Assembly: GCA_947472765.1 (NCBI GenBank)
Contig: CANJCM010000028.1
Coordinates: 1 to 50,967 of the forward strand
DNA: 50,967 nucleotides
Reading direction: 5' to 3'
From: Opitutia bacterium
GTDB taxonomy: Bacteria; Verrucomicrobiota; Verrucomicrobiia; Opitutales; Opitutaceae
Of this stretch, positions 1,491 to 32,117 are shown piece after piece. The notes beneath the pieces were generated by a model. The model was not told the origin of the DNA and searched no databases. It worked only from the letters and a program-made list of their open reading frames with translations. The position numbers were made by a program, and so were the translations under genes. Position 1 is the stretch's first letter. Each line of letters opens with the position of its first letter.

Positions 1491-1517
1491 AGACGAACGA
1501 GAGGCCATCCCGGACTA
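1491..1517 (-). promoter_or_regulatory. TAG-N17-TTCGTCT element (site C), upstream of rhamnosidase
   Basis: On the minus strand the sequence is ATAGTCC, then 14 bases, then TTCGTCTAAG. The TAG ends exactly 17 bases before TTCGTCT, as in eight other sites in the window. It faces the rhamnosidase gene. Confidence 0.55.
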
Positions 1518-1601
1518 TCTCAATTCGCGGCTAAATTTTCCTCCCCGACCGGACAATTCGCTCGCCTCACTCCTCAGTGAAGACGCAATTTTTGGCCCGG
1601 A

Positions 1602-2162
1602 TTGAGCAAACCCCAGAGTGACCCCGCTCGTTGGTTCAACGAGGAAGTGAAGCCACATGAAGGGACGCTTCGCGCGTATTTGCGAAGCGCGTTTCCTTCT
1701 TTGCGCGACGTAGACGACCTCGTGCAGGAGTCTTTCAGCCGGCTCTTACACGCCCGGAGACTCGGCAAGATAATGCACACAAAGGCATTTCTCTTTACGA
1801 CCGCCCGCAACGCGGCCCTCGATTTCGTCCGCCGGCGCAAGGTCGTTTCGATCGACGGCGTAGCCAACTTGGAGAACTTGTCCGTCTACGTAGATAGCCC
1901 GGATGCGGCTGAAACGCTGAACAAGAAACAAGAAATCGCACTATTGACGGAGGCGGTCCAAAGCCTGCCTCTCCGCTGTCAGGAGGTGATGACCCTGCGG
2001 CTCCGCCATGGCCTTTCGCAGAAGGAAATCGCGGCCAAGCTCGGGGTCTCAGAGCACACGGTGAAGAATCAACTGGCGAAAGGTATGAGGCGGAGTGCGG
2101 ACTTTCTTGAGTCCAGAGGTGTTTCATTGGCACGCCGGAAGGTAGACAAGACCGAACCATGA
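1602..2162 (+). CDS. RNA polymerase ECF-type sigma factor
   Basis: A 186-residue protein with the two regions of an ECF sigma factor. Region 2 spans about residues 20-90 and contains DVDDLVQESFSRL and TARNAALDFVRRR, which bind core polymerase and the -10 box. Region 4 spans about 125-175 with LPLRCQEVMTLRLRHGLSQKEIA and the helix-turn-helix LGVSEHTVKNQL, which reads the -35 box. The start is a TTG at 1602; no in-frame ATG lies near it. Its stop overlaps the ATG of the fecR gene (ATGA), so the two are translationally coupled. By analogy with FecI it should be held by the membrane anti-sigma factor next door and released when the TonB receptor that follows is occupied. None of the nine TAG-N17-TTCGTCT elements precedes it. 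Confidence 0.9.
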   Translation: MSKPQSDPARWFNEEVKPHEGTLRAYLRSAFPSLRDVDDLVQESFSRLLHARRLGKIMHTKAFLFTTARNAALDFVRRRKVVSIDGVANLENLSVYVDSPDAAETLNKKQEIALLTEAVQSLPLRCQEVMTLRLRHGLSQKEIAAKLGVSEHTVKNQLAKGMRRSADFLESRGVSLARRKVDKTEP

Positions 2163-3190
2163 GTTCCTTTCCGGACAAAGAACGCACGGAGGCAAAGGCC
2201 TCGGAGTGGCTCGCCCTGCGTGACAATGGCTTCACTCCCGCGGAGCAGCGGGAGTTCGAAGCGTGGTGTGCTGCCGATGCCGCCCACCGCGCCGCGGTGG
2301 CACGGCTTGATGCCGTATGGTCCGCCCTCCAGCAACTGCGCGGATTCGATTCCGACGTGACGACAATTGCCCCCCGCTCACGCGGAGCTGGAGTGTATCG
2401 CGCCATCTTCTTTGCCTCCGGCCTGGCCGCCTGCGCTGCGCTCGCAGCTGTATGGTGGTTTCGCCGGCCGGCCGGAGAAAACGCGATCCCGGAACGGATC
2501 GAATCGCATTCCTATGCCACGGTCGCCGGAGTCTACGAAAAGATCACCCTGTCCGACGGATCCACCGTCCAGCTCAACGGAGGGACGAGACTTTCGATCG
2601 CTTTCACCACGCGCGAGCGGCGGGTCACCCTCGAAGCCGGCGAAGCTCACTTCGCCGTGGTGCCGAACAAGGTCAGGCCCTTCCGGGTGGCCGCTGCCGG
2701 CACGGAGGTTTCGGCGGTGGGGACGGCATTCAATGTTCGCCTCCGGAGCGAGAAGATTGAAGTGCTGGTCACCGAGGGCCGGGTCCAGGTGGCTCGTAGC
2801 CACGAGAACCTGGGCTCCATGACCAGCCGGAATGAAGCGGACTCGACGCCGCTGCTCGCGGCGGGGGAGCAAATGGTGGTTTCGCGCGTCGCAGGGATCT
2901 CTCCGACGATTGTCGCAATGTCTCCGGAGGAGATTCGGACGGAGTTGTCCTGGCAGGTGGCAAAGGAGGCATTCGTCGATATGCCGTTGGGCGCCGTGGT
3001 CTCCCGCTTCAACCAGCGAAACAGACAACAAATTGAAATCGTGGATCCCGAACTCGTGAGTCAACCAGTGAGCGGAAGTTTCCGCACCGAAAACCTGGAT
3101 GGCTTGCTCCGACTCCTTGAGTCTGCTGACCTCGGCGTCGTCGTAGATCGCTCCGAGCCAGATCGAATCGTTCTGCGCCGACAGCGATAG
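2159..3190 (+). CDS. fecR: FecR family anti-sigma factor
   Basis: A 343-residue inner-membrane signal transducer. Residues about 12-62 are a DUF4880 domain (ASEWLALRDNGFTPAEQREF through AVARLDAVWSALQQL), the cytoplasmic sigma-binding part. A single membrane helix lies at about 81-101 (IFFASGLAACAALAAVWWF). Residues about 118-220 form the periplasmic FecR beta domain (YEKITLSDGSTVQLNGGTRL, VTLEAGEAHFAV, VSAVGTAFNVR). Residues 270-343 look like an STN-type C-terminal module (FVDMPLGAVVSRFNQRN, VSGSFRTENLDGLLRLLE). It lies between the sigma gene, with which it overlaps by four bases, and a TonB receptor carrying an N-terminal STN domain. That is the standard arrangement for surface signalling. 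Confidence 0.93.
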   Translation: MSSFPDKERTEAKASEWLALRDNGFTPAEQREFEAWCAADAAHRAAVARLDAVWSALQQLRGFDSDVTTIAPRSRGAGVYRAIFFASGLAACAALAAVWWFRRPAGENAIPERIESHSYATVAGVYEKITLSDGSTVQLNGGTRLSIAFTTRERRVTLEAGEAHFAVVPNKVRPFRVAAAGTEVSAVGTAFNVRLRSEKIEVLVTEGRVQVARSHENLGSMTSRNEADSTPLLAAGEQMVVSRVAGISPTIVAMSPEEIRTELSWQVAKEAFVDMPLGAVVSRFNQRNRQQIEIVDPELVSQPVSGSFRTENLDGLLRLLESADLGVVVDRSEPDRIVLRRQR

Positions 3191-3265
3191 TTACCCCTCC
3201 GGCGGATCGACACCGTCCGCCACCCGCGGGCATGCATAGGAAGCCCTTTCGCCAGAGCCGAGCAT

Positions 3266-6200
3266 GTGAACCTAACCCCGTCCCGTGTACGATCGAGAGA
3301 CCTCACGTTAACTCTCCCAGGGTTGATGAGGTGCGGGCTGATTATGTTCAGCCTTTGGAGCAGGATCTTGGCGGCGGAACTCCTTCCGTCGCACGAATAC
3401 CACCTCCCGGCCGGCAGCGCGACGGTGACACTGCGGGAGTTCGCAACCTCCTCCAGCATCGAACTCATCTTTTTCGCGCGGGATTTGCAGGGGATTACCA
3501 CGAACGCCGTCGACGGCCGCTTCACCGAGCGGCAAGCCTTGGAGCGGCTGATTGCCAACACCGGACTGTCGATCAAGGAAGACCGCAGTGGAGCTCTCCT
3601 CGTTGCCCGGCCGACAGCAGCGCGCGCCAAGGCCAAATCGGCTCCGGAGGTCGATCCAGCACCGAAGTCGCTCGTGCAGCAAATCACCGGTGTCGTTAAC
3701 CGACTTATACGTGGTCGGGAGGACCGTCCCGAGTCTGTCCGCGAAGGTGCCGCCGATGACAACGGGCCGATTCGGATGAATCCATTTTCGGTCACCGGCG
3801 ACGCCGACGTCGGATTCGTCGCAGCGGGATCTCTCGCCGGCGCGCGCCTGGCCACTCCGCTCAAGGACACCCCGGTTGCCTACAGCGTCGTCACCCAGGA
3901 ATTCCTTGCCGCCTTCAACCTGAACGACGCGGCCGACGCCTCCCAGTTCTCCGTCAACGTGACCTACAATCCCGGCGATGGAAGCATGCAGGGGTTCGCC
4001 ACGTCCGGTGCGGCGGGGCAACTCCCGTCGCAGGCGCAACAGCCGCTGATGATCCGGGGCCAGGCGTCGAGCCTGGCCCTGCGCAATTTCTTCCCGTACG
4101 CCAACACGCCCGACAGCTTCAACCTGGATCGGATTGATTTCACGCGCGGGCCGAACTCCGTCCTGTTCGGCGCCGGCGGCGGAGGCGGAGCCCTCAACAG
4201 CGTGACGAAGCAAGCGATGCTGGGTCGAAATTTCACAACGCTGCGTCTGCAGGCTGGAAGCTGGGACCGGCTGCGCACCACGGCAGACATCAACCAAACT
4301 TTCTCTCCCAAACTCGCGATCCGGACAAATCTCCTATGGGCGTCTGGCGCATCGTGGCGTGAACATGAGTGGGAGGATCGCACGGGCGCACACGTCACCG
4401 CGACTTACGAGCCCGTGCCGTGGCTGAACATTCGGGCCGAAGCGGAGTACCGGAAGGTCTCCCGACTGACGGCTTGGGGGAACTACCTCGATCACCTCTC
4501 GGCCTGGGATGGGGTGACCATTCCCAATGGCCCGGATGCTGGCCTGACCACGAGTCAGATGGCCCGGGCGGGGCTCGCCCGCTTCCCCCAAACCTTCGTG
4601 GGGCGGCCGGACTTCGGAGGCGTGGTGATGAACTTTCAAAACCATTTCACGACCACGTTCGCCAAGTATGATGCGAATCCGGCCGCGACCAGCTATGTGG
4701 CCGGTCAGCCAGTCAGAACCGTGGGCTATGCTGCCAATGCCATGAGCCCGGCTTCCTACGCCTTACGCGACGTCTGGGACCTGAACTACCGCTACTCGGG
4801 CCCGCTGGCAGGATCTCCATATTTCCGAATCCCTTCACCGAAGGAGAACTCGCTCTGGGATGACCCCAAGCATGATCAACCGAGTTACCAGGAACTGGCG
4901 CGCGACGTGGCGGTTTATTTGTCCTACCACCGCGGGGAATCGCTGTTCGTTGAATTGGCCGCCGATCTGAATTCCTCGCCGCGTCAGGGCCGAAACGACG
5001 GGCGACGGGGCCTGCAGCGGCTTTCCCTCGACCTCGACCGTTTGCTGCCCGACGGCCGGCCAAACCCTCACTTCCTCGAGGCCTACAGCGATTCACTGAC
5101 CTATAATGCGTATCGCGCGGAACGTTTCGCCAGCCTGCGCGCGCATGTCGCTTACGCCAGGAAGGTGCCAGCGGGAAAAGTCCAGGCCGGGCTCATGGCC
5201 GGCTCGCAAAATCAGGTCAGCGATGCGCGAGCGGACACCCTGATTCTCCCACTGACGTCGATTGCGCCCGATGCACGGGTCTGGATGGATGTCCCGGACA
5301 ACAATATCTTCGGCTATTACCGGCGCGTTTATCTCAATGATCGGGATCGGCAGCAACTCGGCCGGCCTTCGCTCACGCCAATCGAAACCCTGGATCCGGT
5401 AACTGGCATCCGCACCTCTGTCCGGCCGATTGTCGCGTATGAGTCGCGCCGGCCGGACTACAGCAACCAAGCCGTCAAGAACTACAAGTTCCTCCAACTG
5501 GCCACGAACTTGGATCTGTTCGCGAACCGGCTCGTCTTCATCGCTGCCGCACGTCGTGACCTCATCCGCGTCAACCAGCACCTGAACCGGATCGCACCCG
5601 ACTACCCTGCCGGCTGGCGCGGCGACTATATCCTCGGCCTGCCAGATGCGCCGCCGGACTATGAATCGCTGACGTATCTGCCCAAGGATGCCGCGGGCCG
5701 GGCAACCGGGCCCGCATTGATTGCGGACACCCGGCCCAGGATTCGTAATGCAGACGGGGTGAACGTGGCGGCACCGCAGTACGAAGCCGACCGCTTCCGC
5801 TCGGACTACAGCCCCCCCGACGTCAGCAGCCACGCCAATACCGGCACACTCGGAGCGGTCGTAAACGTCACCAAATCGCTCGGGATCTACGTAAACCGCA
5901 GCACGACCTTCAATCCTGCGAGCGGCCTTCTGATTCGCGATGTGTACGGCCAATTGATTCCACCCACGCGCTCGGTTGGTCACGACGCCGGCTTCCGCGT
6001 GACGATTCCGAACGGTAAGCTCTCCGCCAGTCTGGGATGGTTCGAAGGCCGGACGAAGGGCGCTCCCGCTGGCTTTGGCGTGGCGGGTTTGAACTTCACC
6101 AACCTTTACGGGACGTTCCGTGACACTCCGCTAATTGGCGATCTTTCCGCGGCGGAGGGAAACCAGGGAAATATTCGCGGGTTCAGCACGGGAACAAGTT

Positions 6201-7030
6201 CAACCCAGACCACGAATACGAAGGGTTACGAGGCGGAGATAACCGCCAACGTAGGCTCTTCGTTGCGACTCATGCTGAACGTGGGCAACTCACAGTTGTA
6301 TACCTCTTCGGCCTTCCTCGACGTGAAGCCCTTCATCGACCAGCACGACGGCACCGTCCGAAAGATTCTAGCCGAAGCCGGTGTCCTCATCGACCCGCGG
6401 ACGAATCTCGCGTCGGTCAACCCTGCCGTGGATGACCCGACCAGGATCAATCAGACCGCAGTCCGAAGCGCAGCCGAAGCATGGAATATCCTGCAAACCT
6501 CGACGATTCCTCTCCTCCAGACGCTCTCCGGCCGGGGCCCCACGAATGACACCGGCTGGCGGGTGAATTTTGCGTCGGACTACGGCATAACGCACGGGCG
6601 ATGGAAGGGAGTACGGGTGGGACTTGCGTTAAACTACTTTCCGCGGACGCAGGTCGGCGACCGGTCAGGTGACACCATCCGGGATCCGAACAATCCGGAC
6701 GTTGCGATCGACGACCCTTCCGTCGGCGCATCGAATCCGGTCTATGCTCCTGCCTATCTCAAGGGGACGGGCACGCTTTCATACGTCCTCGTTCTGGCCG
6801 CGTCACAGTCGCGCCCGAAGAAAATCCAGTTCGATTTGATCGTCGACAACCTGTTCGGGCACAACCGGCCGGTGTATTTCCCGGCGAACAACATCACTTC
6901 GACCAGTCATGGGGTCGCTTTCATTCCCCGGAGCGGCATCGTCTCGGATCCCGCACGCGTGACTATTCCAGGCAATCCCGGTTATTTGCCGCCGCGGAAT
7001 TTCATGCTGACCGCCAAGTTCGAATTCTAA
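3266..7030 (+). CDS. TonB-dependent receptor with N-terminal STN signalling domain
   Basis: An outer-membrane transporter of up to 1254 residues. The annotated start is a GTG at 3266; an in-frame ATG at 3326 with AGGG just upstream gives a cleaner signal sequence (MRCGLIMFSLWSRILA) and may be the true start. Residues about 44-113 are an STN domain (ATVTLREFATSSSIELIFF, RFTERQALERLIANTGLSI), which signals to FecR. The plug begins about residue 170 (VGFVAAGSLAGARLATPLKD, DRIDFTRGPNSVLFGAGGGG), followed by the beta barrel ending in the aromatic KFEF. It follows fecR by 75 bases, so sigma, FecR and receptor form one unit. Ligand is unknown; the carbohydrate-active neighbours suggest an oligosaccharide. 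It is a paralogue of the receptor at 22976-26380. Confidence 0.92.
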   Translation: MNLTPSRVRSRDLTLTLPGLMRCGLIMFSLWSRILAAELLPSHEYHLPAGSATVTLREFATSSSIELIFFARDLQGITTNAVDGRFTERQALERLIANTGLSIKEDRSGALLVARPTAARAKAKSAPEVDPAPKSLVQQITGVVNRLIRGREDRPESVREGAADDNGPIRMNPFSVTGDADVGFVAAGSLAGARLATPLKDTPVAYSVVTQEFLAAFNLNDAADASQFSVNVTYNPGDGSMQGFATSGAAGQLPSQAQQPLMIRGQASSLALRNFFPYANTPDSFNLDRIDFTRGPNSVLFGAGGGGGALNSVTKQAMLGRNFTTLRLQAGSWDRLRTTADINQTFSPKLAIRTNLLWASGASWREHEWEDRTGAHVTATYEPVPWLNIRAEAEYRKVSRLTAWGNYLDHLSAWDGVTIPNGPDAGLTTSQMARAGLARFPQTFVGRPDFGGVVMNFQNHFTTTFAKYDANPAATSYVAGQPVRTVGYAANAMSPASYALRDVWDLNYRYSGPLAGSPYFRIPSPKENSLWDDPKHDQPSYQELARDVAVYLSYHRGESLFVELAADLNSSPRQGRNDGRRGLQRLSLDLDRLLPDGRPNPHFLEAYSDSLTYNAYRAERFASLRAHVAYARKVPAGKVQAGLMAGSQNQVSDARADTLILPLTSIAPDARVWMDVPDNNIFGYYRRVYLNDRDRQQLGRPSLTPIETLDPVTGIRTSVRPIVAYESRRPDYSNQAVKNYKFLQLATNLDLFANRLVFIAAARRDLIRVNQHLNRIAPDYPAGWRGDYILGLPDAPPDYESLTYLPKDAAGRATGPALIADTRPRIRNADGVNVAAPQYEADRFRSDYSPPDVSSHANTGTLGAVVNVTKSLGIYVNRSTTFNPASGLLIRDVYGQLIPPTRSVGHDAGFRVTIPNGKLSASLGWFEGRTKGAPAGFGVAGLNFTNLYGTFRDTPLIGDLSAAEGNQGNIRGFSTGTSSTQTTNTKGYEAEITANVGSSLRLMLNVGNSQLYTSSAFLDVKPFIDQHDGTVRKILAEAGVLIDPRTNLASVNPAVDDPTRINQTAVRSAAEAWNILQTSTIPLLQTLSGRGPTNDTGWRVNFASDYGITHGRWKGVRVGLALNYFPRTQVGDRSGDTIRDPNNPDVAIDDPSVGASNPVYAPAYLKGTGTLSYVLVLAASQSRPKKIQFDLIVDNLFGHNRPVYFPANNITSTSHGVAFIPRSGIVSDPARVTIPGNPGYLPPRNFMLTAKFEF

Positions 7031-7158: not shown

Positions 7159-8373
7159 TCAGTGCAGCGCGCCGCGGACCGTCTCGGTGTAGTACGGCCC
7201 GAGCTCCTTGAGAATCAGGTCGAGCAACTTGGCCGGGTCGGTGATCTGGCCATTCTGGCGCCAGATGATCTTCCCGCCGGGTGCAATCAAGACCGTGTGC
7301 GGCAGAGGTCCGTCCCATTTTTCATCCAGTGCTTTGCTCAAGGCGTCGGTGCTTGCGCCGGTATAGTGATAGTTGGTCGTGTTGCGTCCTTCCTTCTTCA
7401 AAATCGCCGTCAGCGCGTCAGAGGGACGCTGGTGATGCTTTTCGAGAAACTTTAGTGCCGATCCGCTCATCTTCGGGTCGTCGAGGCTGATCGTGATGAA
7501 TTCAAATTTCCGTGTGCTCAGCCGGCGGGAGATGTCCACAAGGTGGGGGAATTCCTCGACGCAGGGAGCGCACCAGGTCGCCCACACGTTGATGAGGCGA
7601 AACCGGTTCGAAGGATTCTTCGCCAGCGCTGCGACGCCGTCGGCGTCGATCGTCTCCAACTCGACTTTGCCGCTCTCCCACTTCGCATTGAATTCAGCAA
7701 CCTCGGCCTCCTTCTTACTATTCCACTTCGTGGAGCAACCAGGAGCGTTGGTCTTGGCCACCGTCACCGGCTTGCCGGCCAGGAGTTCATCGAGCGCGTT
7801 GCGCGTGTCGTGCACCTTCACGGTCTTCGGATCTTCGAACCGTGAGTCATCGACCCGACCCACGTACCGAAGCTTACGCTCGCGATCGAACAGGAATACC
7901 TGGGGGGTCGCCTGCACGCCAAACGCAGCCGAGGTAATCTGCGTGTCACCGTCATAAACGTAAGGAAATGGGAAGCCGGCCTCCTGGGCGTACAGCTTCA
8001 TCTCCTCGAAACTGTCGTTGTATTTGCTGTAGCCGAGTTCCTGCAAAGCGACCGCATCGGGGTTGTTGGGATTGATGGCAATGACATCGACGCCCTTGGA
8101 CTTATATTCCCGCACCATTGGCAGCAGGCGTGTTTCCGCGGCGTGCGAGAACGGGCAGTGGTTGGAGAGGAAAACCACCATCAGGATTGGGGCCTTGAAG
8201 TCCGACAGGGAGTAACTTTTTCCATCCACACCCGGAAGTCCTTTGAAATCGGGCGCGGGCGCCCCGAGTTCGAGGAGCTTCGGCGCCCCCGAGGGCTGAG
8301 CCGCGGGAGCAGAAGCGCACACCAACACGAGCGCGGCGGCGCAGAGGGGAATCAGGCGTTTTAGAATATGCAT
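7159..8373 (-). CDS. Exported protein with two thioredoxin-fold domains (redoxin plus TlpA-like)
   Basis: A 404-residue protein with a signal peptide ending near APAAQ. The first domain (about 33-205) is an AhpC/TSA-type redoxin (GAPAPDFKGL, SYSLSDFK, VVFLSNHCPFS with a single Cys at about 73, VQATPQVFLFD with the cis-proline). The second (about 225-395) is TlpA-like with a full active site WCAPC at 267-271 (FRLINVWATWCAPCVEEFPH) and a cis-proline in PLPHTVLI. The second domain should reduce or shuttle disulfides outside the cytoplasm; the first has only one cysteine and resembles peroxiredoxin-like thioredoxin proteins. It is monocistronic, with a TAG-N17-TTCGTCT element about 60 bases upstream. 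It may serve the haem-attachment cysteines of the CxxCH proteins nearby, which is inference. Confidence 0.88.
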   Translation of the reverse strand: MHILKRLIPLCAAALVLVCASAPAAQPSGAPKLLELGAPAPDFKGLPGVDGKSYSLSDFKAPILMVVFLSNHCPFSHAAETRLLPMVREYKSKGVDVIAINPNNPDAVALQELGYSKYNDSFEEMKLYAQEAGFPFPYVYDGDTQITSAAFGVQATPQVFLFDRERKLRYVGRVDDSRFEDPKTVKVHDTRNALDELLAGKPVTVAKTNAPGCSTKWNSKKEAEVAEFNAKWESGKVELETIDADGVAALAKNPSNRFRLINVWATWCAPCVEEFPHLVDISRRLSTRKFEFITISLDDPKMSGSALKFLEKHHQRPSDALTAILKKEGRNTTNYHYTGASTDALSKALDEKWDGPLPHTVLIAPGGKIIWRQNGQITDPAKLLDLILKELGPYYTETVRGALH

Positions 8374-8433: not shown

Positions 8434-8460
8434 AGACGAACCAACGAACGCCACGGGCTA
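8434..8460 (-). promoter_or_regulatory. TAG-N17-TTCGTCT element (site B), upstream of redoxin gene
   Basis: On the minus strand: CTAGCCC, 14 bases, then TTCGTCTGAG. It lies 60 bases before the ATG at 8373. Confidence 0.6.
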
Positions 8461-21103: not shown

Positions 21104-21111
21104 AACTACGG

Positions 21112-22315: not shown

Positions 22316-22348
22316 AGGCACGTCAGTTGGGGGTGATGAAAATCGAGG

Positions 22349-22921: not shown

Positions 22922-22975
22922 TTGGTAAATGGGCAGATTTAGGCGGCAGGTGCGACGGCGCGGCTGCAACGGGAC

Positions 22976-25900
22976 TCAAAACGACATTTTTGCGCTCAGC
23001 TGGAAGCTCCGTGGATCGGGATAGACCGGGGTGCCTTTTACCAGAATCCGCGACGGGTCGGTGATGTCGCCGCTCCGCGGGACAATCAGTGTCGGCGCAC
23101 TTCCCTGGAAGGAGCTGGAGGTGCCACGCGGATAGATGACATCATGATCGTTGAACAGATTGTCGATCGTCAGATCGAACTGGATCGATTTTGGCACGAT
23201 GCGCCGTGAATCGTTAAGCCGGAGAGTATATGAAAGTGTACCCATCGTCCGAAAATACGACGGCGAGCGCAGGAACGAAGAGATGTCGGTATTGGGATCA
23301 TCAATCGCCTGATTCGGATTGGCGGAATTGCGAATGGTCTCCCGCGACCGCTCGCCAAGAATCATGGGCGGGAAATAGTTCACGCCCAGGCCGACTCTCA
23401 GGCCATTCAATGCTCCACGCCGGAAACGATAGTCCGTCGCCAGGTTTGCCTTCCAACCCGTGTCGGTTACGACGTTGCCGCCGCTCGCGGCCAAATCACG
23501 CAACGTCGGGATCGTGATGTCGTGCTGCGTATTCCACGCTGCGACCGCCGCCTGAACTGCGGCTTGGTTAATCTTTGTCGGGTCGTTCACGGCGGGATTG
23601 ATCGAGGCGTGATTCTGCCCATCAAACACGATCCCCGCCTCCTGCAGTTGCTTTCGCACACTCGGTTCGAACGCCTCAATGGCGGGAAGAACATTCGTAA
23701 AGGCCTTCGATACCTTCAGGTAGGTGATACCAACATTCGTCGTCAGCCGCCACGAAGAGGTTAAGTTTGCGGTGCCCTCGAATTCGTAGCCCCAGGTCTC
23801 GCGGTCGCGGGTTGAGGAACCGGCGAACACGATGTTGTTCAGGTTGTCGCCAATTGGGTTGAGATTCCCCACTGCCGGAACGTCGCGATACTCGGCGTAA
23901 CCTTGAATCGGCGAAACATCGAAGGATTGTCCGCCACCAGTTGTATTCTTGGTTTCACCCCAAAACCGGGCAATCGACCCGGAAAACTTCCCGTTCGGAA
24001 GTGTGAAGCGGATGCCGGCATCGTGACCCAGCGAAGTAGTGGGTGGAATCAGCTTTTGGTCATATCCACGCGCCAGAATACCGCTGGCCGTGGGATTGAA
24101 CGTGGTGCTGCGATTGAAATAGAACCCGATACTCCGGGTCACGTTTACCACTGTCCCCAGAGTGTAGGTGTTCTGGGCAACCACGACTTCCGGAGGACTG
24201 TAATCGCTCTGGAAGCGATCATTCCCATACTGGGGAGCCCGGGCGTTGATGCCGTTGACGGTCGTACGAGGCCGCGTCACTGCCAGCGTCGGAGCGCCCG
24301 TCGCTTTCCCTGCCGCATTTTTCGGCGTATAAATCAGCGTATCAAAGTCCTTGGGCGCCTTCGGCAGCCACGTATAGTAATCGCCCTGCCAACCTGCCGG
24401 GTAGTCGGCGGTCACGTTCCCCAGTTTCTGGTCGGCGTTGACCAAATCCCGCCGCCCCGCCGCGATGAGGACCACCCGGTTCTTGAAGAGGTCCATGTTC
24501 GCGGCGAGTTGAACGAACCGGTTTACACGCGTGACCTCGTTATTAAGCTCAGGCCGCGCGCTTTCCCAGGACATGAGCGGCTGAATCGCTCCTTTGATCC
24601 CAGTCACGGGATCAATCGCAATTGCTGGGGCCATCAACCGGGCCAGTTCACCGACTTGTGGAGTCGTATCATCGACGAGCACGCGCCGATGATGGCCGTA
24701 AAAGTAGTCGTTGTTTCCGTTGGGTTGATTCCAACTCCGAGCGTCGGCCGATCGAAACGTGATCGGCAGCATCAGCGTGGAAGCGTGTGCAATGGAAAGC
24801 TGCTCCTGCCAGCCACCCATCAACCCGGCCTGAACCTTGCCGAAGCGGGTCTCCTTCACGTAGGCCGCCTGAAGGCGCAGATTCCGGTAGTTCTCCTCGC
24901 GGAGAGTTACAAAAGGCATCGCGTCGCTGAACATCCGCAGGAAGTCGGGATTCGGGGTGCCGTCCGGACGGACACGACTGATGTCTATGCTCATACCCTG
25001 CAGACCACGGCGACCGTCATTCCGACCCATCCGGGGAGTTTCGTTGATGTCACCAGCGGCCTCGATGAAGAGTGACTCCCCAAGCGTGTAGGTGGCATAC
25101 GCTGTCGCAGACCGGGTCACTTCAGTATAGCTGGGAGCCCGGTGTCGGGGATCAGTCCACAGGGTATTTTCTTCCGGTGCGAAGAGTCTCCAATAGGGGG
25201 TACCACGCTGAACGGCTGCGTAGAGCTCCGGCGACTTCCAATACAGATTATCCATCGGATAAGTCGTGTTGTAACGGGTTTCGTTTCCGAATCCGACGGT
25301 GTTGACGGGCTTTCCGTTCAGGAAACCGGTCTGCGCGGGAGGGGCATTGTAGCGGGCTGAATCGGTCGTGTACGTGTTCTCGTAGTTGATGAAATTATTG
25401 CCCCATGACGGATGGTTCACGAAGTGCAGTGGAAAACGGAACACGCCGTACTGCGCCATCTGGCTGGCCGTGATACCCGGGTTGGCCCCGTCGATGTAAG
25501 TCTTGCCATCCCAACCTGTCAGCAGGTCGGTCAAAGTCTGCCACGCCTGAAGCCGGCGGGTGGAACGATATTCCACTTCACTGCGCAGAGTTAACCGCTG
25601 GGTCGGACGATAGGTCCCAGTCAGATGCAGGCCCTTACGATCCTCCCATTCGTGGTCCCGCCAGGTGTCGCCGGTTTGATACAACAGGTTTAGCCGCGCA
25701 GCAATTTTTGGGGTAATGACTTTGTTCGTGTCCAACGTAAACCGGTAGCGGTTGAAGCTCCCGACCTGGAGCCGAAGCTCCTGCAGATCCCGGTTTACCA
25801 GCGCCTGCTTGGTGTTCGTGTTGATCGAGCCGCCGCCATTGCCGATTCCGAAGAGCACCGAATTCGGCCCCCGGGTTACATCAACGCGATCTGCATTGAA

Positions 25901-26380
25901 GTTGTCCGCGGTCCCGCCCACCGGAAAGAAATTGCGCTGGGGAGACGCGGTATTCTGGCCGCGAATCTGCATCGGCTGATCCGTTGCCGTCCCGCTGAGG
26001 GAATTCATTCCACCCGACGCCGCGAAGCCCTGATTGCTGCCATCGACGGTGGAATACTGGACGTTCACCGAGTACTGCGCAGCGTCAGCGGCGTCGGTAA
26101 GATTGAACGCGTCGAGGAACTCTTTCGTCATGACGCTATACGCCACTGGCGTGTCCTTCAACGCCGTGGCAATGCGACCACCCGCCAGCGAACTGGCGGC
26201 AACAAATCCGACATCCGAGTCGGCCTGCACGCTGAAGGGATCCAGCTTGATGGCGGCTTCCGATGCGCTGGCGCCGGAGGGGGCCGGTGCGGTTTGCGCA
26301 ACCAGGGGGCCAGTCCAAATCACAAGGCTGGCAATCATGGCAGGACGAATGATCGCGATACGTGGTTTGCTTTGGCTCAT
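22976..26380 (-). CDS. TonB-dependent receptor without STN domain
   Basis: A 1134-residue outer-membrane receptor. A signal region (MSQSKPRIAIIRPAMIASLV, TGPLVAQ) is followed directly by the plug (VGFVAASSLAGGRIATALKD, DRVDVTRGPNSVLFGIGNGG). The 22-strand barrel ends in AKMSF. It is a clear paralogue of the receptor at 3266-7030 (shared TPVAYSV, EFL.AFNL.DAADA, NDGRRGLQ, FQSDYSPPEV against FRSDYSPPDV) but lacks the STN domain, so it should import without signalling to FecR. Genes for a helical protein and a VOC protein follow. Promoter site A lies about 105 bases upstream. A 7-base stem (GCCGGCG/CGCCGGC, 26407-26425) sits in the leader. Ligand unknown, probably an oligosaccharide. Confidence 0.92.
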   Translation of the reverse strand: MSQSKPRIAIIRPAMIASLVIWTGPLVAQTAPAPSGASASEAAIKLDPFSVQADSDVGFVAASSLAGGRIATALKDTPVAYSVMTKEFLDAFNLTDAADAAQYSVNVQYSTVDGSNQGFAASGGMNSLSGTATDQPMQIRGQNTASPQRNFFPVGGTADNFNADRVDVTRGPNSVLFGIGNGGGSINTNTKQALVNRDLQELRLQVGSFNRYRFTLDTNKVITPKIAARLNLLYQTGDTWRDHEWEDRKGLHLTGTYRPTQRLTLRSEVEYRSTRRLQAWQTLTDLLTGWDGKTYIDGANPGITASQMAQYGVFRFPLHFVNHPSWGNNFINYENTYTTDSARYNAPPAQTGFLNGKPVNTVGFGNETRYNTTYPMDNLYWKSPELYAAVQRGTPYWRLFAPEENTLWTDPRHRAPSYTEVTRSATAYATYTLGESLFIEAAGDINETPRMGRNDGRRGLQGMSIDISRVRPDGTPNPDFLRMFSDAMPFVTLREENYRNLRLQAAYVKETRFGKVQAGLMGGWQEQLSIAHASTLMLPITFRSADARSWNQPNGNNDYFYGHHRRVLVDDTTPQVGELARLMAPAIAIDPVTGIKGAIQPLMSWESARPELNNEVTRVNRFVQLAANMDLFKNRVVLIAAGRRDLVNADQKLGNVTADYPAGWQGDYYTWLPKAPKDFDTLIYTPKNAAGKATGAPTLAVTRPRTTVNGINARAPQYGNDRFQSDYSPPEVVVAQNTYTLGTVVNVTRSIGFYFNRSTTFNPTASGILARGYDQKLIPPTTSLGHDAGIRFTLPNGKFSGSIARFWGETKNTTGGGQSFDVSPIQGYAEYRDVPAVGNLNPIGDNLNNIVFAGSSTRDRETWGYEFEGTANLTSSWRLTTNVGITYLKVSKAFTNVLPAIEAFEPSVRKQLQEAGIVFDGQNHASINPAVNDPTKINQAAVQAAVAAWNTQHDITIPTLRDLAASGGNVVTDTGWKANLATDYRFRRGALNGLRVGLGVNYFPPMILGERSRETIRNSANPNQAIDDPNTDISSFLRSPSYFRTMGTLSYTLRLNDSRRIVPKSIQFDLTIDNLFNDHDVIYPRGTSSSFQGSAPTLIVPRSGDITDPSRILVKGTPVYPDPRSFQLSAKMSF

Positions 26381-26486: not shown

Positions 26487-26513
26487 AGACGAACCGCCTG
26501 GCAGGATCACCTA
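26487..26513 (-). promoter_or_regulatory. TAG-N17-TTCGTCT element (site A), upstream of second TonB receptor
   Basis: On the minus strand: GTAGGTG, 14 bases, then TTCGTCTGAG. It is placed about 105 bases before the receptor ATG. Confidence 0.55.
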
Positions 26514-26630: not shown

Positions 26631-27959
26631 TTACGTCATCTCCAATCCGCGGCAGGTCCCGGTGGATGAGGAGAACTTGTCTTGCTGCACTCCCATGCGG
26701 TGAAGCACGGAGAGATACACATTCGTCAGCGGGTAATTTCGCGTTCGATCGAAACCGAGATGCTGACCGTGCTTCCACCCGCCGCCCGCCAGGATGAATG
26801 GCAGATTATTGCTCAAGTGCGCATTGCCATCGGAGAAGTTTGATCCCCAGAGCACGTTGGTTCGGGTCAGGAGCGACTCACCTTCTTCATTCGATTCCTT
26901 GAGCCGATTCAGCAGTGCGTTGAACGCGCGGAAGTTTTCGCGATCGAGCGCATGGTGCTGCGCCAGCTTCTCCGGAGCTTTGCCGTGGTGCGACAAGCCG
27001 TGGTAGCCCTCGGTGATCGGAATGCCGAAGTTGCCCTGAATCGCGGGGGTGCCGGCCGCATCGATGAACAACGTCACGGCGCGGGTGGAATCGGTCTGAA
27101 GGACGAGTGCAATGATGTCGTACATCACCTTGAGCTTCTCGAAGAACTGGGCCGGGTTGCTGGGATCAACCGGCTCTTTCATATCCACCACCGGTTTCGG
27201 TTTCCGCTCCCAGCCTTGGGAAGCCTGGAGCCGGGATTCCAGTGAGCGCACACTGGTGAGATACTGATCCATCCTCTCGCGGTCGGTCGCACCGAGGGTG
27301 GACTGCAACTCCTTCACCTGGTCGGTAACCGTATCAAGAACACTCCGGCCATTTTCCAAATCCATCACCTTTTCTTCGATCTCTGACGGCGAGCCCTGGA
27401 CGAAGAGCTGCTTGAATACCTCCGCCGCCTTGTCTTCAGGGGGAATCGCCACGCCGCTGCCCGTGAACGAAAGGCTCCGCGCCCGCGTATTGAGCGACAG
27501 CGTCAAGGACGGGAATCGGGTGAGGGTTCCGATGTTGTCGGCAATGGCTTGGTCGACGGAAATGGTGTTGCGAAAACTGCTGCTGGCAGGATTCGGAGCG
27601 CCCGTGAGCCACGCGACCTCGGTCGGATGGCTGCCTTGAACCGAAGGCAGGGTGACCCCGGTGAAGACCGTCATGTCATCGCGATGCTCCTTCAGGAATT
27701 CCAGGTAAGGCGACGGTTGATATCCCCGCCCCTCGCCGAGGGGGTAAAAATTCTGCATGATATAACCCAGGTTATTCATGACGCCGAGCATCCGCCGCGG
27801 CTTATTAATTGCCGCTGCACCTGCCTGCGCGCGGGCGAATCGCGGCTGCATCGCGTCGAGCAGCGGGAGCGAAAGCAACACCCCGGTGCCACGCAGAAAA
27901 TGACGGCGGGACAGCGGCCGCCGGCTCGCTAGATACGGGAATCGCGCTTCGTTGTTCAT
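26631..27959 (-). CDS. DUF1552 protein with Tat-type signal (copy B)
   Basis: A 442-residue DUF1552 protein with a twin-arginine-like signal (PLSRRHFLRGTGVLLSLPLL). It matches copy A almost throughout: RMLGVMNNLGYIMQNFYPLG, SSFRNTISVDQAIADNIG, VTLFIDAAGTPAIQGNFGI, ITEGYHGLSHHGKAPEKLAQ and the same end SSSTGTCRGLEMT. The gene begins eight bases after the stop of DUF1592 copy C, so the pair is translated from one message. That two such pairs exist in one locus argues that each DUF1592 protein works with its own DUF1552 partner. Reaction unknown. Confidence 0.92.
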   Translation of the reverse strand: MNNEARFPYLASRRPLSRRHFLRGTGVLLSLPLLDAMQPRFARAQAGAAAINKPRRMLGVMNNLGYIMQNFYPLGEGRGYQPSPYLEFLKEHRDDMTVFTGVTLPSVQGSHPTEVAWLTGAPNPASSSFRNTISVDQAIADNIGTLTRFPSLTLSLNTRARSLSFTGSGVAIPPEDKAAEVFKQLFVQGSPSEIEEKVMDLENGRSVLDTVTDQVKELQSTLGATDRERMDQYLTSVRSLESRLQASQGWERKPKPVVDMKEPVDPSNPAQFFEKLKVMYDIIALVLQTDSTRAVTLFIDAAGTPAIQGNFGIPITEGYHGLSHHGKAPEKLAQHHALDRENFRAFNALLNRLKESNEEGESLLTRTNVLWGSNFSDGNAHLSNNLPFILAGGGWKHGQHLGFDRTRNYPLTNVYLSVLHRMGVQQDKFSSSTGTCRGLEMT

Positions 27960-27966
27960 AATTCGG

Positions 27967-30813
27967 CTATTTGTTTTGAAACAGAGGGCTCTGCACGATC
28001 GCGTCTAACATACTTCGGACGCCGAAATTAGTCGCCCGGGTTTGCTGTAGGATCTGTTCGACAGCAGCCCGATCGCTAAAGCGGATCGGCGCACCCGTGG
28101 CATACACGACCATCTGACGGGCAAGATTGCGTGCGATTTGCTCCTGATCCTGGAGCAGAATTTTCTTAAAATCCCGCACATCGTTGAACGCCCGGCCGTC
28201 AACCGTGCTGCCGCTTGGATCCACCGGCAGTGCGAAGTAATACGTCTTCGGCCAGCCGTTCTTGCCGAAGCCGACATCGGGCTCCTGGCCCTTGGCAATC
28301 GCCCGGTAGCGGTCACGCCAGCCGCCGAGAACGTCGAAGCTCTCAAGCGCAAAGCCGGGCGGGTCGATATTCCGGTGACAGCCTGCACAGCTTTCGTCCG
28401 CGCGATGCTTGTCCAGTTGCGCCCTAATCGTCGTCGCGCCGCGCACGTCTGGCTCGACGGCCGGAACCGATGCAGGCGGCAGGGGAATCTCATAGCCCAC
28501 CACGCGTTCCATGATCCACTTGCCGCGGAGGACCGGTGAGGTCGTGGTTCCGTTGGCGGTCAGTTTTAGCACACTCGCCTGAGTCATGATCCCACCGCGA
28601 ACGCTGTTCGCGGGCAACGCCACCCGGCGCAACTTCACGCCGTCGACATCCGGAACACCATAATGGGTCGCAAGCCTCTCGTTCAGGAACGTGAAGTCCG
28701 AATCGATGAGATAGCGGGCCGGCAGGTTCTGTTTCAGCAGTTCAGTGAAGAACAATTGAGTCTCCTCTACCCCAGCTTCCACCAGCGCGTCCTCGAGGAA
28801 GTAGTCGCCGTAGAGGTTCATGTCCGGCGTCGTGTCGAAGACCTTCCTTAATTCCAGCCAGTAATCGAGGAACGCCTGGACAAACCGGGCGGACTTTGGG
28901 CTCTCGAGCAGACGCTGCGTCTGTTGACGCAGGATTTCCGGGCGATGCAGTTCACCCCGCGCCGCCAGTGCGCGGAGTTCCGCGTCGGGCCCTCCGTTCG
29001 TGAGGAACAAAGCCAGCCGGGTAGCCAGAGCGAATTCGTCCAGCGGCCCATGCTGCCCTTCGTCGAGGTAGACAAATTGCTCGGAGGACAATACCGCAGT
29101 GTACATGGTCATCATCGCGGCCGCAAAGCCGATGCCACGATCGTGCCGTTGCTTGAACAGATTCAAGAATCGCTGGACGTCCGACTCGCGTACAGGATGC
29201 CGGTAAGCCCGGGCGATGAAGTTCCTCAGCAGCCGCTCGGCGTCGCCCTGCGGATCGGCGGATACCACTTCGACGGCCACCGTACCCTTCGGCCTGACTT
29301 GGTGAACGCCGACCAGCCCGGTGAATCGGCCGTACGTGCCGTCCGCGTCCGGCGGTGAGGGCAGCTGAAGTTTGACCCCGACGTTTTGCTCGCCCTCCAC
29401 CCGCCTCATCTTCAAGTCGCCGAACAGAAGCTGATACCCCGCGAGAGCGGGACCGTCGTACAGAGGACCCTCCACCTCCATCCAGCGAAACGCCACGCCG
29501 GGCTGTCCATCAGGTTGCGCCAGCGGATTCGTGTAATTGACCACGGCGGTCAGCCCTGGCCGAGAACGATAGAGCCTCGCCGCGTCTGTAATAATATACT
29601 GGTCCGCCTGGAGCGCGACGTTCTTCAATTCGAAGATCTGCGGCTCAGGCGTGAGATCGAACGTTCCAATTTTCTGTCCGGCCGACGGCGGCACCCGGGC
29701 GTAAACGTGGAGCGGCTCATCCCTCCGGCCCGGCGTGATATCCCGATGGTTGGACAGATACCATTCCGGCGGGCCAAGCTGCGGCGGTCCTCCCGGGCCG
29801 GCATTCCCCCCGCGTCCACCCGCCGCCGGAGTTGCCGCAGCCGCCTGCCCCGCCCCGTTTTGGGGCGCACCTTGGCCGCCATTGCCAGGTCCTCGACGCA
29901 GTTCGAGCGATCCCCCTGATCCCATCCAGACGGTGTAAGCACTGAAACGCAGATTGTATTTCCCGGACACCGGTGCACGGAAGCGGCTCCAGTTCGTGGT
30001 GAATGCGGTGCCGAAATCACTATGCGACCAAGCCATCGCCTCGATCTCCCTCGTGGCGGGATCGGAGTCCCCAACGGTGAGAGGACCTTGACGACTCAGG
30101 GCGCGCAGATCCGGACCGGAACCCAGAATAGGAAACCGGCCGCGGTCGGGCACGCCGTCCGTCGCGGTATACGCGTGATTTTCGCGCGCCCAATACCGCA
30201 CGGTTTTCGTGGGCCGTTTAAGCCATTCGGCAGCCATTGCCTCACGGACGGCAAGTTGCGCAGCGCTCATGTAGCGGGCCACATGAACGTGCGACACATC
30301 AAGCGCCTTGCTCACCTTGTTGAAATGAGCAGCCTCCCCGTCTTCCGGAAGTAGGTCTGCCACGCGCAGCGTTGGGATTTCCAGCAAGTCTCGCAGCGTG
30401 TTCTCAAATTCCGAGCGGTTCATCCGCCGGCGTTGGGCGCGTCCGTGTTCGGCGGCAATGGTTTGCTCGTATCCAGTAACCGCTTGTCCGACTTCCCTGA
30501 GAAATTCCGCCATTTCGCCCGTGGGCGGCCGCTTCTTCTCCTTCGGCGGCATCTCTCCACGCTGCACGCGATCGTAAATCCTGACCCAAGAGAGCAAGTT
30601 GCCGGCATCAGCCGGCGCAAATTCCATCGTGCTCAGGTCCAAGCCGGCCTCCTTGTCCACATCGTTGTGACACGAGGCACAATATTTATCGGTGAAATTC
30701 ACAACTCCCTCGGCTGGTGCTGCCGCCGTGGCGGGCAGGGCCGTTGACGAGACGGCGGCAACGACACAAAGAAAGCTGAAAATCGACGCGGTCGGCAGGA
30801 AAGGAATATTCAT
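27967..30813 (-). CDS. Haem-binding DUF1587/1592/1588/1585 protein (copy C)
   Basis: About 948 residues from the ATG at 30813, chosen because it opens a signal peptide (MNIPFLPTASIFSFLCVVAA); the frame continues 41 codons upstream over the promoter element. PSCyt1 haem motif CASCHND near residue 44 with GEMPPKEKKRP; DUF1587 (RRMNRSEFENTLRDLL); a beta-rich part (FRAPVSGKYNLRFSAYTVWM) broken by a long Gly/Ala/Pro/Gln-rich insert near residues 300-345; DUF1595 and DUF1592 (ARAYRHPVRESDVQRFLNLF); DUF1588 with the second motif CAGCH near 807; DUF1585. Closest in the window to copy B. Likely exported c-type haem protein of unknown reaction, paired with the DUF1552 gene that follows. Confidence 0.92.
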   Translation of the reverse strand: MNIPFLPTASIFSFLCVVAAVSSTALPATAAAPAEGVVNFTDKYCASCHNDVDKEAGLDLSTMEFAPADAGNLLSWVRIYDRVQRGEMPPKEKKRPPTGEMAEFLREVGQAVTGYEQTIAAEHGRAQRRRMNRSEFENTLRDLLEIPTLRVADLLPEDGEAAHFNKVSKALDVSHVHVARYMSAAQLAVREAMAAEWLKRPTKTVRYWARENHAYTATDGVPDRGRFPILGSGPDLRALSRQGPLTVGDSDPATREIEAMAWSHSDFGTAFTTNWSRFRAPVSGKYNLRFSAYTVWMGSGGSLELRRGPGNGGQGAPQNGAGQAAAATPAAGGRGGNAGPGGPPQLGPPEWYLSNHRDITPGRRDEPLHVYARVPPSAGQKIGTFDLTPEPQIFELKNVALQADQYIITDAARLYRSRPGLTAVVNYTNPLAQPDGQPGVAFRWMEVEGPLYDGPALAGYQLLFGDLKMRRVEGEQNVGVKLQLPSPPDADGTYGRFTGLVGVHQVRPKGTVAVEVVSADPQGDAERLLRNFIARAYRHPVRESDVQRFLNLFKQRHDRGIGFAAAMMTMYTAVLSSEQFVYLDEGQHGPLDEFALATRLALFLTNGGPDAELRALAARGELHRPEILRQQTQRLLESPKSARFVQAFLDYWLELRKVFDTTPDMNLYGDYFLEDALVEAGVEETQLFFTELLKQNLPARYLIDSDFTFLNERLATHYGVPDVDGVKLRRVALPANSVRGGIMTQASVLKLTANGTTTSPVLRGKWIMERVVGYEIPLPPASVPAVEPDVRGATTIRAQLDKHRADESCAGCHRNIDPPGFALESFDVLGGWRDRYRAIAKGQEPDVGFGKNGWPKTYYFALPVDPSGSTVDGRAFNDVRDFKKILLQDQEQIARNLARQMVVYATGAPIRFSDRAAVEQILQQTRATNFGVRSMLDAIVQSPLFQNK

Positions 30814-30853
30814 CGGCGGAAATGTGAACGGCGTTAAGGCTCCCCGTAGACCA

Positions 30854-30880
30854 AGACGAATCAGCGCTCGTCGCGGCCTA
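30854..30880 (-). promoter_or_regulatory. TAG-N17-TTCGTCT element (site G), upstream of DUF1592-DUF1552 pair
   Basis: On the minus strand: ATAGGCC, 14 bases, then TTCGTCTTGG. It lies 40 bases before the ATG at 30813, a normal leader length, which supports that start. Confidence 0.65.
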
Positions 30881-30977
30881 TCGAAGGCAAACATTTGCTG
30901 CCTACGTGCCGACGACGACGCATGCCGCCCCCGCAAGCCCGAGACCGGCCCACCGTGGTCGCGCTACGCCGGGCGGG

Positions 30978-31829
30978 TCAGAGCGCCCGGTAGAGGATGT
31001 TGCGATATTCCACCCTGAACGGCGGGCCGACGTGCATCTGGAAGCCGATCAGACCCTCAAGCACACGGGCTGGATCTTCGTCGATCAGGATGGCCATGAC
31101 CTTGCCGTTGATCACGTGGATAATCACCGAGTCGCGGGCTATGATGTGAAGGGAATTCCAATCGTTGATTTTCACCACTCCCTTGAGGGCGTCGGGATCA
31201 CCCACACTACCGACCAGCTTGAAATTGCGCCCACCGATAGCCCGGCTGAACAATCCGCGTGGCGAAAGGAAGCCTCGGCCACGCTCGTCAAAAATATTGC
31301 CGGTGTAATTGTTGATTAAGTCCATGTCGGCTTGGTAGCCCTTCAGTACCCATTTGCCCACGGCAGGCAGCTCGACACTGCGGTATTGGATGCCGCTGTT
31401 GGTGCCATTCAGGCGAAAATCGACCTTGAGCTCGAAATTCTTCGCTGTGCCGCCCCGCCAGATAAGAAAGCTATTGGCCTTCACGACCTTCTCCGGGGTG
31501 CTCTCACCCACGATCGCGCCGTCCTCCGCCCGCCAGAACGTGGTGTCCCCATCCCAGTTCGCGAGCGTCTTGCCATCGAAAATCGACACGAAACCGGCCG
31601 TGTCATCGGCCGGTCGGGGTGGCATCGTCATGACGCGCCCGTAAGTGGGTGCCGCACCGCCGCCCGGCCCGGCCGGGCCGCCGGGACCGGCTTTCTGGCC
31701 AGGAGGTATCTGGACCGCGTCACCCGCGGGCGGCTGTTGGGCCAGCAGTGTGGCAACCGCCACGAACAGGAGGGACGCGAAGCGAACGCGCCGGAAATCG
31801 GCGCAACGGGAGGTACAGGACGACTTCAT
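30978..31829 (-). CDS. DUF1080 protein, putative 3-keto-disaccharide hydrolase
   Basis: A 283-residue protein from the ATG at 31829, which opens an export signal (MKSSCTSRCADFRRVRFASL, then LFVAVATLLAQ). The frame extends 78 codons further upstream, but that part contains the promoter element and is non-coding. After a Gly/Pro-rich linker (about 45-65) comes a DUF1080 (PF06439) beta-sandwich: FVSIFDGKTLANWDGDTTFW, NFELKVDFRLNGTNSGIQYR, KGYQADMDLINNYTGNIFDE, WNSLHIIARDSVIIHVING, GLIGFQMHVGPPFRVEYRNI. Members of this family hydrolyse 3-keto-glycosides; that activity fits the dehydrogenase-like and isomerase-like genes of the locus. Monocistronic, with promoter site H about 215 bases upstream. 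Confidence 0.88.
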   Translation of the reverse strand: MKSSCTSRCADFRRVRFASLLFVAVATLLAQQPPAGDAVQIPPGQKAGPGGPAGPGGGAAPTYGRVMTMPPRPADDTAGFVSIFDGKTLANWDGDTTFWRAEDGAIVGESTPEKVVKANSFLIWRGGTAKNFELKVDFRLNGTNSGIQYRSVELPAVGKWVLKGYQADMDLINNYTGNIFDERGRGFLSPRGLFSRAIGGRNFKLVGSVGDPDALKGVVKINDWNSLHIIARDSVIIHVINGKVMAILIDEDPARVLEGLIGFQMHVGPPFRVEYRNILYRAL

Positions 31830-31953
31830 ATTGGGTGGGTGGAGTTGCGCTGGAACTGCGCGACGGTCGAATACAGTGGCCGGCGTAGGATTGCGCGACA
31901 GTCTCAGCTTGAAGGGCAGGAAAAAAACGGGCGAGTGGGTTCGCAGGGGGGCA

Positions 31954-32011
31954 GGCCGTGACGAGTTAGCGCAAACGTCACCACCCGCTGCGCTGCTAAC
32001 ATTTAACGGCC
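31954..32011 (+). repeat. 58-base palindromic repeat, copy 1
   Basis: An imperfect palindrome with outer arms GGCCGT/ACGGCC and inner arms GTTAGC/GCTAAC. It is a direct repeat of 32112-32169, equal in length (58 bases) and arm positions. It lies in the leader of the DUF1080 gene, downstream of promoter site H. Confidence 0.65.
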
Positions 32012-32117
32012 CGACCCCTTTGGATCTGCCGTCACCAGAACCAAGACGAACAAGCACCGTCAATGGGCTATCGAGCCGGCGATTTCGAGGGGTTCTTGGG
32101 TGAAGGGGTCGGGCCGT
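32006..32117. repeat. Perfect 15-base inverted repeat bracketing promoter site H
   Basis: ACGGCCCGACCCCTT (32006-32020) and AAGGGGTCGGGCCGT (32103-32117) are exact reverse complements, 82 bases apart. They are the facing edges of the two 58-base repeats and enclose promoter site H. They could form a cruciform or a binding site pair. Confidence 0.65.
32044..32070 (-). promoter_or_regulatory. TAG-N17-TTCGTCT element (site H), upstream of DUF1080 gene
   Basis: On the minus strand: ATAGCCC, 14 bases, then TTCGTCTTGG. It is the best match to the consensus together with site G. It lies between two copies of a 58-base palindromic repeat. Confidence 0.6.

Follow-up and report, generated by a model that had tools for sequence, protein, structure and literature searches.

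The window analysed in this work is the whole of contig CANJCM010000028.1 (C28; 50,967 nucleotides, nt) of the Opitutia bacterium assembly GCA_947472765.1, a genome of 4,968,708 bases in total. The window exhibits nine copies of a two-part, promoter-like element, TAG-N17-TTCGTCT, that are spread over 31 kb. It also exhibits a gene for a sigma factor of the extracytoplasmic function (ECF) group that is followed by genes for a FecR-like protein and a TonB-dependent receptor. A further copy of the element lies inside the sigma gene. The coordinates of the genes and elements are shown in Table 1. The transcription units mentioned are predicted ones that were drawn from gene spacing.

The sigma factor encoded at 1602-2162 consists of 186 amino acids. 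Regions 2 and 4 were matched by Pfam and region 3 was left unmatched, which is the composition of an ECF sigma factor, and the NCBIfam sigma70-ECF model scored 78.9 against a cut-off of 42.9. The NCBIfam equivalog model of E. coli FecI scored 54.8 bits against a cut-off of 260 bits, and all FecI models stayed below their cut-offs. The FecR-like gene lies directly downstream of the sigma gene, which is the arrangement of FecI-type signalling; its FecR_C match (21.7 bits) is under the cut-off of 24.4. Orthologues of the sigma factor were searched for in 95 genomes, and nine orthologues of 60-65% identity were identified among the matches listed. The wider set of FecI-type loci consists of 90 loci (the first search contributed 30, and 60 more were taken from the further matches that it listed) from 32 genomes and 11 genera under one family. 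A FecR-like gene is found directly 3' of the sigma gene and on the same strand in 88 of these 90 loci, and the remaining two loci stop at contig ends. Relatives of the N-terminal part of the receptor 3266-7030 are found in 69 of the 90 loci.

All nine elements are present at the positions and on the strands that were reported in an earlier sequence-only reading of this DNA. Each of them faces one or more genes as that reading had proposed, eight on the minus strand and one (18806) on the plus strand. The leaders range from 7 or 9 nt (11815 to the alternative GTG and 21112 to the ATG) up to 352 nt (1491), which is consistent with the reported range of eight to about 350 bases. TAG and CGTCT are conserved in all nine sites, C at letter 5 in 8/9, and G three bases past TTCGTCT in 9/9. 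Among sites lettered A to I, a mismatch in the heptamer had been assigned to F (21112) and I (32044). The mismatch in F was found, whereas I is perfect and C (11815) is the mismatched site instead. Three other TTCGTCT heptamers had been listed where five are present (10675+, 13483-, 39843+, 46301+, and 46995+), and the count of nine copies had overlooked the one-mismatch copy at 1861-1887 (+) inside the sigma gene.

The nine elements are real and non-random. The window exhibits 10 matches with at most one mismatch (the nine and 1861), and 100 dinucleotide shuffles of the window gave a mean of 1.29 and a maximum of 6. The exact motif occurs seven times in the whole genome and every occurrence is in this window, while the backwards control pattern occurs 10 times. 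An equal frequency throughout the genome, which the sequence-only reading had named as evidence against a regulon, was thus not found for the exact motif (7/7 on C28). The genome scan with one mismatch, which had been proposed as a check, gave 101 matches against 213 for the backwards control. The relaxed pattern alone is therefore nonspecific, and specificity is found only in the exact form or in a matrix. The possibility that the element is a piece of a longer repeat was rejected because the spacer and the flanks are unconserved.

The orthologous loci exhibit sites similar to TAGCCCG-N13-TTCGTCT at two fixed places. One place is upstream of the sigma gene, where the site reads away from the gene and is the counterpart of the window element 1491. 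The other place is between fecR and the receptor gene (locus L017 is too short to show it). A matrix was built from 16 distinct ortholog sites and zero window sequence. When applied to the window, this matrix ranks the nine elements 1-8 and 10 among about 102,000 positions, and rank 9 is the copy at 1861 (+) inside the sigma gene. Seven of the nine sites score above the best value (13.4) in 389 kb of background from the same genome, and 30854 (12.0) and 18717 (4.5) score under that value. The exact TAGCCCG-N13-TTCGTCT has six matches in the 95 genomes, all at orthologous sigma loci. Within the flanks fetched for the orthologous loci (up to 20 kb on either side, shorter at contig ends), the sites found by the matrix are for the most part those at the two fixed places and inside the sigma gene. 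The large regulon therefore seems to be particular to this genome. Two genomes, at G024:C114:19447 and G025:C16:96725, share a one-mismatch variant, TAGCCCGTTTCCACCA..TTCGTCG, that is perhaps the site of a related sigma factor.

The local confinement of the sites would be an artefact if C28 had been misbinned from another organism. The composition of the first 30 kb fits such an origin, with a GC content of 0.61 and a tetranucleotide distance of 0.15-0.19 where the genome's own background has 0.06-0.13. The last 20 kb (distance 0.11) fit the genome, however, and the DUF1592 proteins of C28 share 60-66% identity with copies encoded on the bin's other contigs. A local distribution of the sites is likewise exhibited by orthologous genomes that are assembled in long contigs, one of them as a single contig of 5.96 Mb. 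We consider misbinning quite unlikely. The shift in composition (1-30000 atypical, 30000-50967 genome-like) suits an acquired island, with some doubt about binning left, and the first 30 kb are possibly such an island with its edge near the edge of the regulon.

The other FecI loci exhibit different letters and the same TA-N20-CGTC geometry. Among the 90 loci, this geometry is found after fecR in 38, upstream of the sigma gene on the opposite strand in 28, and inside the sigma gene on the coding strand in 37. Other spacings and strands of TA-Nx-CGTC are mostly found in 0-10 loci. On the forward strand upstream of the sigma gene, TA-N20-CGTC was found in just 2/90 loci, which is not the pattern of an autoregulated sigma/anti-sigma operon. 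In its 28 loci, the divergent site lies some 60-130 nt ahead of the sigma gene. In L013, L016, L020, L037, and L038 a guess from GC content at third codon positions gives the upstream gene the same orientation as the sigma gene, and the divergent site may therefore do more than serve a divergent gene. Leaderless receptor mRNAs, which were considered because an ATG lies near the -10 part in some orthologues, were rejected since the starts compatible with the receptor are mostly 20-60 nt past CGTC.

The intragenic copy falls in the codons of the linker between sigma2 and sigma4. At one linker column, 51 of the 85 valine, leucine, or isoleucine codons are NTA, and CGTC follows exactly 20 nt on. 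Elsewhere in the genes, with this column and column 145 left out, NTA makes up 99 of 3742 such codons (p = 4e-53). The bias is also exhibited by the loci under 60% identity alone (27/39 against 40/1686, p = 7e-32). Codon column 145, just past the internal CGTC, is a second NTA outlier (20/90 loci) that reads CGTC-NTA and possibly belongs to the start region. The element might be only a by-product of protein conservation in the linker (V-A-D-L-x-x-L-S-V) and not a DNA signal, since the valine whose codon gives CGT(C) is a conserved residue, and another dyad spike, on the antisense strand, arose from coding conservation. The residue at the NTA column varies, however (V in 33, L in 30, and I in 22 of 90 loci), while the codon stays NTA, and the internal letters match the non-coding promoters of each locus with a null result for the spacer. 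A by-product of coding is very unlikely in our judgement.

That match was measured within each locus, between its internal site and its external sites. In the internal -35 part, letters 3-7 agree with the locus's own external sites in 3.04 of 5 letters against 2.00 when shuffled (0/5000; 34 loci), and the agreement holds with 21 and with 15 divergent loci (0/5000 each). The spacer control is null (3.25 against 3.19); own-locus agreement is seen to some extent in the right flank of the -10 part (1/5000) and little in the left flank (59/5000). A blind scan of 540 gene positions, in the 38 loci under 60% identity out of 76 with enough flank, places the linker position first (z 6.7; next 3.4), and this position is still first when the -10 condition is omitted (z 5.5). 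Shifted spacings of 20, 21, 23, and 24 are not counted as controls as the scan window moves along with them and the four are not independent. Loci that lack the internal TA often agree with their external sites through other letters: L106 has TCACGGAAA in both its internal and external sites, and L035 and L088 have TTACGGAA in both. Agreement in 8 or 9 of 9 letters is found in 15/79 loci against 2.1 expected; for these 79 loci the external sites were picked by their likeness to the internal site, a bias from which the following test of residue 155 on external sites is free.

Letter 5 of the external -35 part varies with residue 155 of the sigma factor across 46 loci, where K occurs with C in 20/21 loci and E with G in 10/11. 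The coupling of K155 and C has p = 1e-9 in the 46 loci, 2e-6 in 34 loci, and 0.004 in 22 divergent loci; in the last set residue 155 couples highest with letter 6 and not with letter 5. The window sigma factor has K155, and its sites have C at letter 5 with one exception. In alignments with E. coli sigma E and with SigE structures, residue 155 falls on the arginine of TVRSR, and the helix that holds it is taken by us to be the one that reads the -35 part. The internal letters couple with residues 155 and 156, and the base after CGT with residues 61-62 of sigma2, with values that are inflated by ancestry. When 41 divergent loci are used, the internal letter ranks second of all positions in its coupling with the helix residue (7.5). 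Because ancestry inflates the couplings within the gene, the own-locus match, the blind scan, the codon bias, and the external K155/C coupling were weighted most. These findings also bear on whether the nine sites are classical transcription factor operators or variants of a housekeeping promoter. The two-part form, the fixed spacing, the CGTC -10 part, the orientation toward genes, the conservation at sigma loci, and the coupling of -35 letters with the sigma4 helix all argue against operators or housekeeping variants, which we regard as extremely unlikely.

The sequence-only reading had proposed that a dedicated ECF sigma factor controls the rhamnosidase, redox, DUF1592/1552, isomerase, second receptor, and DUF1080 genes together. 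This proposal is supported by the ortholog promoters, the shared geometry, and the coupling with the sigma4 helix. The sigma factor had been left unnamed, and the FecI-type sigma factor 1602-2162 is the candidate reader of the motif; joint control of these genes by this factor is the best reading of the sequence data.

Several findings weigh against the proposed role of the sites, in addition to the composition of the first 30 kb. The window has no clear site before the receptor gene 3266-7030, and a weak candidate (3192-3217) sits where 8/8 orthologues that reach there have a site. The intragenic copy of the window scores 8.9 bits against the background maximum of 13.4 and is not significant alone, and the window locus belongs to those with a weak match between internal and external sites. 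The internal TA is lost in two of the nine close orthologues (L015 and L016), and 39/90 loci have no NTA at the linker column, several of them matching their external sites in other letters. Agreement in at least 7 of 9 letters is found in 24/79 loci against 8.8 expected, which is enriched and not universal. The antisense strand of the sigma gene exhibits TA-N17-CGTC in 50/90 loci, with lesser spikes at spacings 23 (14 loci) and 12 (11 loci); coding conservation can make dyad spikes, and these are taken as such. For 66 loci, the helix residue couples equally strongly with other gene positions (z up to 13.6).

At the level of sequence, the sites, their tracking of the sigma gene, and the intragenic copy are established, and so are the conservation of that copy as DNA and its agreement with the locus's external sites. 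We consider it quite probable that the nine sites are promoters of the sigma factor 1602-2162 and that the linker copy most likely lets the active sigma factor raise FecR and not itself. The nine elements would be -35/-10 promoters, TAG-nCC ... GTTCGTCT, that are read by this sigma factor. A ligand sensed by the first TonB receptor (3266-7030) would cause FecR to release or activate the sigma factor, a surface-signalling scheme that is based on gene order and domains. RNA polymerase bearing the sigma factor would then transcribe the minus-strand units from 32 to 7 kb, one plus-strand gene, and the rhamnosidase gene. The copy at 1861-1887 would raise fecR expression under active sigma and leave the sigma level as it is, which would be a feedback within coding sequence. 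We infer here that the sites drive transcription, in which direction the feedback acts, and what ligand is sensed. The feedback may either damp the response, with FecR as an anti-sigma factor, or sustain it, with FecR as a pro-sigma factor (a role reviewed in PMC9249621).

The same sequence evidence would also fit binding without productive transcription. The nine sites would then still be sigma promoters, and polymerase at the intragenic copy would only block or pause on its own gene (self-repression or a roadblock). According to the discussion in PMC10771440, most of the intragenic sigma sites reported from other bacteria either show no transcriptional activity or serve as pause sites. The copy faces fecR with both its -35 and -10 parts kept, whereas a pure binding site needs no orientation, and we consider binding alone unlikely. 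The most likely role of the internal copy is that of a promoter for fecR under active sigma.

Beyond this locus, we lean towards a family-wide arrangement in which FecI-type sigma genes carry two codes. The linker would spell the gene's own promoter, the promoter letters, helix residues, and linker amino acids would co-vary, and the active sigma factor would drive its own FecR. Each paralogue would therefore carry a readable tag of its promoter specificity. If this is true, promoter specificity is legible from the regulator's own gene, and thousands of uncharacterised FecI-type sigma factors could be matched to their targets by sequence. In families f3, f4, and f8 of the order, a small set of which 29/30 loci were aligned, no clear peak was found (best z 4.0 of all positions). 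One Sphingobacterium genome, also a small set with 30 of 38 FecI-like matches scanned, gave no intragenic peak (best z 3.7), and no intragenic equivalent was found in fecI when the E. coli fec locus was scanned. A literature search, with most subscription papers outside its coverage, found no sigma factor with its own promoter inside its own gene.

The regulon genes are shown in Table 1. A site precedes every minus-strand transcription unit drawn between 32.1 and 7.1 kb, as well as the isomerase-like gene on the plus strand and the rhamnosidase gene. The putative regulon consists of three DUF1592-type cytochrome proteins, two DUF1552 proteins, two isomerase-like proteins, and single genes for a rhamnosidase, a redoxin, a DsbD-like protein, a glyoxalase-like protein, a second TonB receptor, and a DUF1080/3-keto-disaccharide hydrolase. 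It may serve the uptake and oxidative cleavage of a glycoside that presumably bears rhamnose. A regulon defined by gene family, with DUF1592 genes everywhere, was rejected since most DUF1592 relatives lie on other contigs and exact sites are found only on C28. A search of the host genome with one DUF1592 protein gave at least 14 matches at E 1e-200 or better, with scores computed for 14 of the 59 first-look candidates. At the same cut, with up to 14 candidates scored per genome, three genomes of the same genus (G000, G004, and G010) have 12-14 close DUF1592 relatives each, and other genomes with a match have 1 or 2. Overlapping frames at 32309-34710 (+), with cytochrome c domains and a beta-propeller of the pyrroloquinoline quinone (PQQ) dehydrogenase type, adjoin the regulon and have no site.

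Table 1. Genes and candidate promoter elements of the sigma locus and the putative regulon in the window.
Feature	Coordinates	Strand	Remarks
FecI-type ECF sigma gene	1602..2162	+	TTG start as listed; Pfam Sigma70_r2 44 bits and Sigma70_r4_2 52 bits, both above cut-off
Intragenic promoter copy (putative)	1861..1887	+	In sigma2-sigma4 linker codons, faces fecR; one mismatch, TCCGTCT
FecR-like anti-sigma / sigma regulator gene	2159..3190	+	Overlaps sigma stop by 4 nt; Pfam FecR 69 and DUF4880 34 bits, above cut-off
Weak candidate promoter before first TonB receptor	3192..3217	+	TACCCC..CGTC; TA-N20-CGTC geometry, not TAG
TonB-dependent receptor with N-terminal STN-like signalling domain	3266..7030	+	Pfam Plug 36 bits, above cut-off; STN 22.9, under 28.4
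Promoter element 1 (putative)	1491..1517	-	Divergent from sigma, faces rhamnosidase; orthologues have a site at the same place
Alpha-L-rhamnosidase, truncated by contig end	3..1139	-	Pfam Bac_rhamnosid_N 28.5 bits
Promoter element 2 (putative)	8434..8460	-	Faces redoxin gene 7159-8373; ATG 61 nt on
Redoxin/thioredoxin-like protein	7159..8373	-	Pfam Redoxin, AhpC-TSA
Promoter element 3 (putative; CTCGTCT)	11815..11841	-	Faces DUF1592 gene 8506-11808; ATG 88 nt on, alternative GTG 7 nt on
PSCyt1/DUF1592 family protein	8506..11808	-	Pfam
Promoter element 4 (putative)	18717..18743	-	Faces genes 18441-11943; lowest ortholog-matrix score of the nine, 4.5
DUF1592 (15499-18441), DUF1552 (14133-15476), DsbD-like (11943-14078)	11943..18441	-	Pfam
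Promoter element 5 (putative)	18806..18832	+	Faces isomerase-like gene; ATG 44 or 134 nt on
Xylose isomerase-like TIM barrel protein	18874..19923	+	Pfam AP_endonuc_2
Promoter element 6 (putative; TCCGTCT)	21112..21138	-	Faces second isomerase-like gene; ATG 9 nt on
Second xylose isomerase-like TIM barrel protein	20069..21148	-	Pfam
Promoter element 7 (putative)	26487..26513	-	Faces second TonB receptor and following genes; ATG 107 nt on
TonB receptor (22976-26380), small protein without Pfam match (22349-22969), glyoxalase-like (21368-22321)	21368..26380	-	Pfam
Promoter element 8 (putative)	30854..30880	-	Faces DUF1592-DUF1552 pair; ATG 41 nt on
DUF1592 (27967-30936), DUF1552 (26631-27959)	26631..30936	-	Pfam
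Promoter element 9 (putative)	32044..32070	-	Faces DUF1080 gene; ATG 215 nt on
3-keto-disaccharide hydrolase (DUF1080) family protein	30978..32063	-	Pfam; true start probably within the open reading frame

The locus is similar to the E. coli FecI-FecR-FecA system where adjacent sigma and FecR genes are followed by a TonB receptor gene. Both systems also exhibit a promoter before the receptor gene (here in the orthologues) and a sigma gene without an upstream forward site. However, FecI controls one promoter and fecIR is not autoregulated (PMC9249621), whereas the window has nine sites spread over 31 kb together with a copy inside the sigma gene that faces fecR. The PvdS iron-starvation box, given as TAAAT-N16-CGT in PMC2235872, shares TA and then CGT at nearly equal spacing. 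The window sites do not match that box, as they read TAGnC with TA-N20-CGT, one base longer than its TA-N19-CGT, and have other -35 letters; no sign of iron control was seen in the window.

Carbohydrate loci with TonB receptors, such as the carbohydrate utilization (CUT) loci of Xanthomonas and those in metagenome-assembled genomes of Verrucomicrobia, are similar in that genes for TonB receptors lie next to glycoside genes. The available portion of PMC5615132 reports PSCyt and DUF1552-type genes from Verrucomicrobia; that portion differs from the findings in this work in that it describes no sigma-promoter set and does not contain the term sigma. In Caulobacter, the sigV promoter sits inside a coding sequence of an ECF system, as is proposed here. 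It differs in that it lies within the upstream cabp gene and drives the sigma gene, and is not a sigma factor's own promoter in its own gene (PMC13171946).

The remainder of the window exhibits outer-membrane efflux protein, AcrB-type pump, and E1-E2 ATPase genes at 36131-44541 (+), which are likely a metal-efflux set. A RadC-like gene is found at 44908-45804, and an AbiEii/AbiEi type IV toxin-antitoxin pair is found at 46366-48018 (-).

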